Made by a program: the position numbers and the translations under genes
Shown: in pieces, positions 2,417 through 54,265 of the stretch
How positions within the stretch are numbered: position 1 is the first letter of the stretch
Layout: each line of letters starts with the position of its first letter
The notes under the pieces: model-generated
The model's input: only the letters and a program-made list of their open reading frames with translations
Told to the model about the DNA's origin: nothing
The model's database searches: none
Assembly (NCBI GenBank): GCA_029916745.1
Contig: JARXWK010000002.1
Span: 62,001 to 126,000, forward strand
Source: Dysgonomonadaceae bacterium PH5-43
GTDB lineage: Bacteria; Bacteroidota; Bacteroidia; Bacteroidales; Azobacteroidaceae
Direction: 5' to 3'
DNA length: 64,000 nt

Positions 2417-2566
2417 TTTCAATGTGTGAAACAGATTATTTCATACATTGAAAGAATTCGTTTTATAGTTTGAAAGAATTTATCTTGTGGTTTGAAATTA
2501 CTTGTTTCATATAGGTGAAACACTTTGTTTTATACGGTTGAAACAACCTGTTTCATACGGTTGAAA
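2417..2566. repeat. Seven-unit 22-23 bp imperfect palindromic tandem repeat
   Basis: Seven degenerate units start at about 2417, 2439, 2461, 2483, 2505, 2528 and 2551, a spacing of 22 or 23 bp. The best-conserved units read TTTCATACGGTTGAAA, so each unit is itself an imperfect inverted repeat with TTTCA and TGAAA arms. The right-hand units are most alike and the left-hand ones more decayed. The array fills much of the gap (2347-2736) between two leftward genes. No open frame uses it. The rest of the gap shows only AT-rich sequence. Confidence 0.8.
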
Positions 2567-2736
2567 CAAATTTGGCTGTGTACACGAGAGTATCTGGGGA
2601 AATAAATTTTATAAAATAAAGAAGTTTAGCCTTGAACAACGTGTCATTCATTATTTGCTATTAAATGCAACTTTTATGAATGGCATTGGTCTTTTAGATG
2701 GAAAAATTGGTGTCGCTTTGCGCCAACTTTTATCTT

Positions 2737-19580: not shown

Positions 19581-19790
19581 ATTTTCTATTTTTACTTGTT
19601 TATAAAAAAGAACTATTTATCTCAACACTCTACCTTTTTATTAAAATTTTCTAAGGTCTCATTTGCAAATTAATACATTTTATTTGTATAAAACAAATAA
19701 AAGTTAATAAATGTGTCAGTTTTTGTAACTATTCAGACCACCATTGGTTAGCGCTAACTTTTATCTTTGAGTTTTTAACTTTTAACTTTA

Positions 19791-20304
19791 CCTTATCCGA
19801 TTAGAATAAACAACCTCAAATACAGTACTTTATAAAACTCCAAAATAAAAGCTTCACTTAGGGTCGTCTCTCTACTAAGAGACCCCTCCTCTCTCTTAGT
19901 AGATAGGCGAGGTGTCTCTACTAAGAGAGACGGGGTGCTTTAAGTAGAAAGACGAGGTGGTTCTACTAAGAGCGGCATCGGGTATCTACTAAGAAACAAC
20001 TCGCCTATCTAATAAGAGCAACAAGGGGTATATAGTAACAACCAGCTCGCCCATCTACTGAGAGCGGCGAAGTGCTTCACAAGAGAGATAAAGCCGTCCA
20101 TTTGTCCACACGCTAACTTTTACGCTCTTCTCAGAGAGTTAAGGAATTACAGATAGTTGCTTATTGGGGCAGCTTGCTTGCACTCTTGCTCCGCTCTTAA
20201 GATTAAGCAAAGGGTCTATAATATCAAAATAATAGAAATAATAACAGTCTTGTAGAAATAAGTAAGTAGAGAAAATGTCGAGAATTTGGGCGAAATAGAA
20301 AAAG
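19791..20304 (+). repeat. Dispersed 0.5-kb non-coding repeat, copy A
   Basis: One of three related copies in the window. It opens with CCTTATCCGATTAGAATAAA, shared with copy C. A core starting GCTTCACTTAGGGTC (19851) leads into about nine imperfect units of about 23 bp with the core TCTACTAAGAG. A conserved unique block from about 20096 follows (CCGTCCATTTGTCCACACGC and ATTACAGATAGTTGC), then an AT-rich end with GAATTTGGGCGAAATAGAAA. There is no open frame. It lies between divergent genes. The rest of 19581-20398 is AT-rich, with a promoter at 20369. Confidence 0.88.
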
Positions 20305-20368
20305 TTTTATCGGACAGCAATATAATTAAATAAATCTCAATTACTGCCTTACATCAAAGATTGTTTTG

Positions 20369-41040: not shown

Positions 41041-41559
41041 AAAAACACAAAGCTTCACTTAGGGTCTTCTCTCTACTAAGAGACCCCTCGTGTCTCTACT
41101 AAGAGAGGCGATGTCTCTCTACTAAGAAAGACGGGGTGGTTCTACTAAGAGAAATGAGGCTGTTATACTAAGAGCTGCATCGGGTATCTACTAAGAAACA
41201 GCTCGCCTATCTACTAACAAAGGCGAGGGGTATCTACTAAGAGCAACGAGGGGTATCTAATAAGAAACAGCTCCCCTCTTTAGTAACAACGATAAGGAGG
41301 TTCTGCTGAGAAGCGGTGAAGTGCTTCGCAAGAGAGATAGAGCCGTCCATTTGTCCAGTCGCTAACTTTTACGCTCTTCTCCGAGAGTTGAGCAATTACA
41401 GATAGTTGCCTATTGGTGTAGTCTGCTTACTCTCTTATCTACTCTCTTAAATGACACAAAGGGTCTATAATGTCAAAATAATAGAGAAAGGAGAAATCTT
41501 GTGAAAATAAGTAAGCAGAGAAAATGTTGAGAATTTGAGTGAAATAGAAAAAGAAAGAT
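41041..41559 (+). repeat. Dispersed 0.5-kb non-coding repeat, copy B
   Basis: Copy B begins at AAAAACACAAAGCTTCACTT and contains about eleven 23-bp units with the core TCTACTAAGAG, then the conserved block (GCCGTCCATTTGTCC, TTTTACGCTCTTCTCCGAGA, ATTACAGATAGTTGCC). It lacks the 60-bp left extension that copies A and C share. It is flanked by TATCTTTCT (41029-41037) and AGAAAGATA (41552-41560), a possible short terminal inverted repeat. No open frame is present. Confidence 0.88.
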
Positions 41560-41627
41560 ACAATTTTCGCTGAATAGTTACATTTTGTACTATGTTACAA
41601 AAATAACTCACTGACTTTTTAAAATAA

Positions 41628-53576: not shown

Positions 53577-53651
53577 TAAAATCTAATATTTAGGGTATAA
53601 AGTTCTTTGTAACTCCTAAACAAACAAAATTAATCAGGGGTAAAAGTATAA

Positions 53652-54225
53652 ATCTTTCTTCCTTTTTGCTATTTCGCCCAAATTCTCGACATTTTCTCTA
53701 CTTACTTATTTTCACAAGACTACTCTTCTTGATATTATTTTGATATTATATACCCTTTGCTTAATTCATAAAGCGGAGGCAAGAGGGTAAGCAAACAACC
53801 CCAATAGGCAACTATCTGTAATTCCTTAACTCTCGGAGAAGAGCGTAAAATTTAGCGTGTGGACAAATGGACGGCTCTATCTCTCCTGAGAAACACTTCA
53901 CCGCTTATTAGCAGAACCTCCTTATCGTTGTTACTAAAGAGGCGTGCTGTTTCTTATAAGATACCCCTTGCTGCTCTTAGTAGATACCCCTCGTCGTTCT
54001 TAGTAGAAAGGCGTGCTGTTTCTTAGTAGAGACCCGATGCCGCTCTTTATATAACCGCCTAATCTCTCTTAGTAGAACCACCCCGTCGTTCTTAGTAGAG
54101 ACACCTCGCCTTTCTACTAAGAGAGAGAAGGGGTCTCTTAGTAGAGAGACGACCCTAAGTGAAGCTTTTATTTTTGCGCTTTATAAAGTGCTGTATTTGA
54201 GGTTGTTTATTCTAATCGAATAAGG
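53652..54225 (-). repeat. Dispersed 0.5-kb non-coding repeat, copy C (inverted)
   Basis: Read on the minus strand it starts CCTTATTCGATTAGAATAAA (54225), has the GCTTCACTTAGGGTC core start (54165), about eleven 23-bp units, the conserved block with CCGTCCATTTGTCCACACGC, and an end with GAATTTGGGCGAAATAGCAA. It is closest to copy A at both ends and to copy B in unit number. It lies between two convergent genes (53576 and 54266) and fills nearly all of that gap. There is no open frame. Confidence 0.88.
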
Positions 54226-54265
54226 TTCGAAATAGCTATAATGACAGAGCTATGCTTTTTTGAAT

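Follow-up and report, generated by a model that had tools for sequence, protein, structure and literature searches.

A family of hairpin-array repeats in a Dysgonomonadaceae genome whose copies keep apart from one another

Background

A non-coding repeat of unusual build occurs three times in the 64,000-nucleotide stretch analysed here (the window, C2:62001-126000) of the genome of Dysgonomonadaceae bacterium PH5-43, and the question it raises is what kind of element this is and what arranges its copies along the chromosome. A preliminary description had placed the copies at 19791-20304, 41041-41559 and 53652-54225 (inverted), where they are indeed present, and had given them a fixed order of head, array, conserved block and AT-rich tail, which is seen in all three (Table 1). 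The 23-bp units of the array are borne out by Tandem Repeats Finder, which reports periods of 22-23, 46 or 69 in each copy (3/3), and a check of the open reading frames (ORFs) agrees that the neighbouring genes are divergent, tandem and convergent, respectively. Three identities had been suggested: a non-autonomous mobile element, a nucleoid or segregation site, or a structured RNA. The lineage of the host bacterium includes termite-gut symbionts: in G003, a genome of the same genus, a stretch of 12,000 bases is identical to a plasmid (NC_011562) of Candidatus Azobacteroides pseudotrichonymphae, which lives in a termite-gut protist. One of ten window proteins scanned carries a T9SS sorting domain, in keeping with such a Bacteroidales origin.

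Table 1. Parts of the three window copies, and occurrences of an IS-like end elsewhere in the genome
Feature	Sequence	Position	Strand	Basis or remark
Copy 1, GTAACTATTCAG motif (outer-end motif of the composite form)	window	19725..19736	+	right end of copy 1 without partner
Copy 1, type A left extension (ACCTTATCCGATTAGAATAAAC...)	window	19790..19851	+	
Copy 1, conserved head AAAGCTTCACTTAGGGTC	window	19848..19865 (C2:81848-81865)	+	head pattern
Copy 1, palindromic 23-bp unit array	window	19866..20065	+	limits approximate
Copy 1, tail block	window	20054..20305	+	tail profile
Copy 1, right end GTTTTATCGGACAG	window	20304-20317	+	
Copy 2, conserved head	window	41049..41066 (C2:103049-103066)	+	head pattern
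Copy 2, array, about 11 palindromic 23-bp units	window	41067..41310	+	limits approximate
Copy 2, tail block	window	41296..41571	+	tail profile
Copy 2, right-end motif CTGAATAGTTAC	window	41570..41581	+	
Copy 3, conserved head	window	54151..54168 (C2:116151-116168)	-	head pattern
Copy 3, palindromic 23-bp unit array	window	53920..54150	-	limits approximate
Copy 3, tail block	window	53650..53921	-	tail profile
Copy 3, type A left extension	window	54169..54226	-	
IS-like end	L089	978-1069		
IS-like end	L113	1141-1235		
IS-like end	L122	1753-1801		
IS-like end	L146	15346-15436		
IS-like end	L114		-	
IS-like end	L142		-	contig start

Results and discussion

Copy number and gene context

The draft genome comprises 2,537,984 bases (2.54 Mb) in 46 contigs and has an estimated completeness of 99.97%. 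Pattern, BLAST, tail-pattern and profile searches together place the hairpin-array repeat at about 95 sites in it, so that the family is large and dispersed, as had been described, with far more than the three members first noted; an outcome that the preliminary description itself had named as speaking against it, namely only three copies explained by recent segmental duplication, is not what was found. The head pattern AAAGCTTCACTTAGGGKC, allowing up to two mismatches, has 87 matches genome-wide (48 on the plus and 39 on the minus strand), 77 of them without mismatch, and the reversed pattern, used as a control for these 18 bases, has none. Eight further places came from BLAST, the tail pattern and R1, a sequence profile of the head and first units, some of these being incomplete or truncated where a contig stops. 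With copy 41053-41559 as query, BLAST scored 40 of 117 candidates and gave 54 matches, with 40 strong places at 76-100% identity, the query's own among them. The tail pattern matches at 35 places. For R1, 150 of 1,327 candidates were scored, and places were counted among the matches listed.

The element had been said to code for nothing, and none of 39 copies examined (L047 left out) lies inside an ORF of at least 240 nt. Both neighbouring genes were found for 37 copies, of which 19 lie between tandem genes (10 and 9 by direction), 11 between divergent and 7 between convergent ones; in a control set drawn from 706 kb, 188 intergenic regions without the element divide into 107 tandem, 50 divergent and 31 convergent. 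Since the two sets of counts are alike, the element samples intergenic DNA regardless of gene direction, and what was seen in the window, that it is tied to no one gene arrangement, extends to the genome, with orientation making no difference. It has the MITE traits of being short, non-coding, multi-copy and intergenic.

Anatomy of the element

An alignment of 32 copies and a reading of 88 oriented ones gave a common plan. The left edge is sharp, (TGCAAAG)CTTCACTTAGGG, with (TGCAAAG)CTTCAC standing against differing upstream DNA in many copies. This is where the part common to the copies begins; the longer left part of the copies at 19791 and 53652, first taken as the start of the element, marks a subtype found in 7 of the 85 copies that could be classed (three short ones of the 88 were dropped). 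There follow about 11 palindromic units of 23 bp per copy, for example with the core TCTCT-CTACTA-AGAGA, in an order that is largely constant between copies, whole units being gained or lost; 24 of 86 copies have the unit 1 loop in inverted form on an unchanged stem.

The tail block of about 250 bp is a fixed part in the window, whereas genome-wide it is present in 37 and absent from 48 of the 85 classed copies (by string tests). Extra upstream modules accompany 32 of the 37 tailed but 14 of the 48 tail-less copies, so that tail and modules go together. Right ends are of several kinds, GATAAAGCTTTCGCTGAATAGTTAC and GTTTTATCGGACAGCAAT among them; six or more of the tail-less copies close with a long stem, AAAGGCAAGG..CCTTGCCTTT or a similar one, and T-rich DNA comes next. 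Of 35 tailed copies, 31 carry the head AAAGCTTCACTTAGGG unaltered, while the columns of the tail agree at 88.5% on average; agreement is as high as 97.7% in the best run of 18 tail columns, which indicates that conservation is not special to the head.

Other repeats lie near. A repeat that we call R2 (CCGTAGGCAACGCTTCGCTCGCCGTACGGCTATGG) and modules AACTTTTATCTTTTAGTTTTTAACT and CTCTTAGTTCTTCACTCTTAGTTC stand directly to the left of many copies in the same orientation (L005, L012, L023 and others), R2 being found alone as well and as a cluster of four (C1:122482-127123). Long runs of a GATA microsatellite lie to the right of the array in L088 and L113. Palindromic units of about 23 bp also make up another array, unrelated to the first (TGAAACAACCTGTTTCATACGG-like), which occupies window positions 2448-2569 and occurs upstream of the L049 head as well, so that a 23-bp hairpin plan is used at least twice in this genome.

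Spacing of the copies

The copies exclude each other, and this observation is new here. Neighbours on the same contig (61 gaps) mostly lie at least 11,000 bases apart, with a median gap of 18.6 kb and an accumulation of gaps at 13-17 kb. A single gap is below 5 kb where 12.8 would be expected from random placement, three are below 10 kb (23.2 expected), four below 12 kb (26.8 expected, sd 3.3; the minimum over 20,000 random placements was 14) and 17 below 15 kb (31.5 expected). The expectation is the same when placements sample random sites at the real density of intergenic regions. Exclusion is seen in both orientations: the smallest of 34 gaps between like-oriented neighbours is 10,966 bases, and the 27 between opposite ones are 147, 7,462 and 9,164 and then 13,102 upward, those of 147 and 7,462 forming one cluster on contig C8. 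The test omits a contig-end fragment on C30 and a relic on C20. Runs of orientation along the contigs were also considered and dropped, the like-oriented pairs numbering 28/53, 30/57 or 31/56 depending on the list, and 34/61 in the final one, with no clear signal.

One may ask whether the draft assembly, or the way in which copies were searched for, has created the spacing, and there are grounds for the suspicion: a number of contigs stop within or next to copies, the head pattern under-counts copies that have lost their heads, and the profile search scored only part of its candidates. We nevertheless think this very improbable. The R2 repeat has 41 places in the same assembly, four of them within 4.7 kb on C1, which argues that close pairs are not lost by assembly as such, and the searches not relying on the head pattern added only 8 places to its 87. 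Moreover, a profile scan of 464 kb gave, besides known copies, one array relic (L069:3132-3224, on C20, some 9 kb away from a copy; it came to light later than the spacing test), and a scan of 242 kb in four long copy-free stretches gave nothing at E below 1.

Another explanation, to which we give equally little credence, is that close direct copies recombine with the loss of one of them, which leaves the survivors spaced. The smallest like-oriented gap fits such a process, and the three shortest gaps all join opposite copies. However, deletion between direct repeats would spare inverted pairs, and inverted pairs also avoid each other, with nothing between the third of these short gaps and the next of the 27; in addition, copies are only 88.4% identical to their nearest fellow copies on average.

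Copy-free stretches reach up to 94 kb. Among eight proteins scanned in them, six match known families (DnaB and PurL-type enzymes among them) and two match none; the six belong to housekeeping, exopolysaccharide or secreted-protein families, and the idea that the long gaps are mobile islands was rejected. One such stretch, L142 (C22:1-20000), has a G+C content of 44.9%, compared with 33-38% in the others, and no Pfam family matches its 1430-aa ORF.

A proposed exclusion at insertion

The account that we tentatively place first is that exclusion acts at insertion: the repeat would be an old, lineage-specific, non-autonomous, MITE-like element, derived by insertion, whose spread obeyed an exclusion rule resembling target immunity. 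Copies with sharp edges in differing flanks arise most naturally by insertion, and of the three identities first suggested the non-autonomous mobile element is the best supported. Also in favour of this account are the number of copies and their intergenic placing, the exclusion seen in either relative orientation, the near absence of relics from the DNA scanned, and the few copies with paired end motifs and flanking 8-bp repeats (see below). A MITE-like element of the BrickBuilt plan (see below) would have been inserted by transposition into some 95 intergenic sites; a putative mobiliser sitting on a resident copy, whether at the conserved left end or on the hairpin array, would make the surrounding DNA unavailable as a target, and new copies would thereby be kept more than roughly 11-13 kb from the resident one. 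The head would be the part recognised.

Target duplications of Mu, Tn3 and Tn7 are 5 bp long, as against 8 bp in the three cases readable here (see below). Mu, the Tn3 family and Tn7 likewise avoid DNA within kilobases of a resident copy, according to the part of the literature consulted (PMC7350765), where the cis-immunity of Mu is said to peak near 5 kb and to fade out to 25 kb, and that of Tn3 and Tn7 to extend further. Unlike the present element, a non-coding repeat in a genome without an rve domain, these are autonomous transposons or phages. Whether the spacing rule stems from target immunity, with no immune transposon in evidence, or from chromosome layout, it would be unusual for small non-coding bacterial repeats, and comparison of strains offers a way to test its origin.

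Folding, chromosome layout and RNA

The first 240 nt of 81 copies fold better than their dinucleotide shuffles (30 per sequence), with a mean z of -3.85 on the head-to-tail strand and -4.14 on the other; for copy 2 alone the values are -2.03 and -2.17, and for its tail -1.18. Being nearly equal on the two strands, the scores point to dyad symmetry in the DNA rather than to one RNA strand. Such symmetry would suit sites of chromosome architecture, which we rank second and regard as possible if rather unlikely: selection would keep copies every 15-25 kb or so, their arrays, extruded from supercoiled DNA as hairpins or cruciforms, anchoring or insulating domains with HU-like or head-specific proteins bound to them, so that orientation would be irrelevant. 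HU binds cruciforms, and the naRNA4 RNA made from REP325 of E. coli acts on cruciform DNA, as stated in the portion of PMC6907758 that we draw on. The exclusion and the accumulation of gaps at 13-17 kb are in keeping with such sites, as are the indifference to orientation and gene context, the loops inverted on unchanged stems, and the exactness of the head relative to the average tail column. It is because the copies are spaced that the nucleoid-site suggestion stays viable. Against it, a turnover that holds the spacing should leave relics, and 464 kb yielded one; the long copy-free stretches contain ordinary genes among the eight proteins scanned; the head is not uniquely conserved, given the best stretch of the tail, and most heads were found by the head pattern itself; and the protein partner is hypothetical.

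In a bolder form, which we consider slightly less probable again, the copies would be a chromosome-wide ruler, arrays held at least about 11-13 kb apart and each organising or insulating a domain of the nucleoid, i.e. a bacterial counterpart of regular boundary elements, derived from a mobile element that has been domesticated. The well-kept palindromes and the head AAAGCTTCACTTAGGG do suggest some present-day use.

The structured-RNA suggestion fares less well. The family might consist of RNA genes in many copies, for instance for a DNA-bridging RNA like naRNA4 of E. coli, with the spacing as a side effect, and in favour of this one may cite the better-than-shuffled folding, the terminal stems before T-rich DNA in at least six tail-less copies, and a TATTTTTC-like box upstream of some of 41 copies that lack upstream modules. 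That box is missing in many of the 41, however, and was dropped as a general promoter motif, and the folding is without strand-specific support. Consensus folding found little covariation (a double change in 3 of 60 consensus pairs), which is weak as proof of an RNA. Among stems of length 8 with a single mismatch, A-C mismatches outnumber G-T ones by 122 to 37, which would favour the tail-to-head strand, but identical sites were counted repeatedly and we rejected this asymmetry as strand evidence. In Rfam searches only two tRNAs reached the gathering score over the whole window, and four loci searched at E up to 1 gave, apart from a tRNA, only matches under that score. We therefore regard an RNA gene as improbable.

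Relation to known elements

The preliminary description knew of no described element of this form. The form does have a precedent, BrickBuilt, described from Porphyromonas gingivalis and P. gulae, in which a leader, spacerless tandem 23-nt imperfect repeats and a tail are set between genes in many copies, some without leader or tail, with long stem-loops predicted (Klein et al. 2015, PMC4596501, in the parts used here). All of that plan is found in our element, the tail in the 37 classed copies mentioned above. The sequences tell otherwise. The BrickBuilt unit AGAYCATARTATCCTCTCRTRTG is no closer to ours than chance (P 0.45, 3,000 shuffles), and homology by unit sequence was rejected; the pattern of that unit has no match in 393 genomes of the order, our own included, a set that may omit P. 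gingivalis. Nor are its IS5-like terminal repeats, GAGACCTTTGCA / TGCAAAGGTCTC (GAGACC.../...GGTCTC) as printed in the same source, seen by eye at our ends, for which the left (TGCAAAG)CTTCACTTAGGG and the right CTGAATAGTTAC or GTTTTATCGGACAG were compared. BrickBuilt has 19 copies in that account, compared with about 95 here, and its Table 1 puts some only a few genes apart, e.g. PGN_0553 / PGN_0558, so that no comparable exclusion is apparent from it. With a different unit, different ends and close copies in BrickBuilt, ours is best seen as a parallel element of the same kind: a second one of this plan, with an unrelated 23-bp unit, roughly five times as abundant and under a strong spacing rule. 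The plan being known, the unusual part is the spacing.

REP/BIME sequences of E. coli, including naRNA4/REP325, are also arrays of extragenic palindromes at many intergenic sites (PMC6907758, same portion), but they are linked to RAYT, whereas no Y1 domain occurs here, and they differ in units, left head, tail and spacing rule. We found no published description of the present element among titles on BrickBuilt, repeats of Azobacteroides, naRNA4, spaced palindromes, even spacing, immunity and termite symbionts, mostly from outside subscription journals.

Ends, reach and a candidate mobiliser

If exclusion at insertion is the right account, traces of transposition might be sought at the ends. 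GTAACTATTCAG-like motifs stand inverted at both outer ends of 4 of the 40 copies examined (L007, L013, L016, L021), most of the 40 being without recognisable terminal repeats. In L013 an identical 8-bp AAATATTT lies on both flanks, and L016 and L007 have 8-bp flank repeats with one difference (7/8); the flanks of L021 show no duplication, despite both end motifs. GTAA ends and 8-bp duplications, which are traits of IS66, prompted the idea that the element came from IS66, but neither an IS66 nor a Y1 or rve transposase domain was found in the genome at E 0.001, in a search confined to these three; among 14 control genomes the same search found IS66 in 4, Y1 in 5 and rve in 6. An IS66 origin, a RAYT/REP origin and a mobiliser of the Mu/Tn7/IS21 type were rejected accordingly. 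The lack of these domains counts against exclusion at insertion, as do the length of the duplications, the case of L021, the scarcity of terminal repeats, the three short gaps between opposite copies, the relic on C20 and the absence of young copies.

As to this last point, identity across head and array is 95.4% in the closest pair, and the mean for a copy and its nearest fellow is the 88.4% given above (83 copies), which argues against a recent burst. Flanks are alike over about 50 bp or more in the pairs L020/L030 and L010/L099, so that in a few cases a copy and the DNA around it may have been duplicated as one. Outside the genome nothing comparable was found: the R1 profile, with 79 candidates scored per genome, had no match in 37 congeners, of which 9 are at least 90% complete with little contamination, and a DNA search of 38 relatives returned two scraps only, of 27 and 41 bp. 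Viral contigs contain neither the exact head pattern nor the exact tail pattern, and plasmids and phages, searched sensitively at the DNA level, gave nothing, in collections that may in both cases omit near relatives of the host genome.

An IS-like end, ACGTGAGTTCGATATAAGATTAGAATAAAGC, lies at the ends of contigs C7, C21, C22, C24, C34 and C43 (Table 1). Its first 17 bases are those printed for MITE239 of P. gingivalis in Table 2 of PMC4596501. The 12-mer GATTAGAATAAA occurs, within the DNA of this genome that was examined, only at this IS-like end and at the type A left ends, and by this shared sequence the IS-like end may be a lead to a candidate mobiliser.
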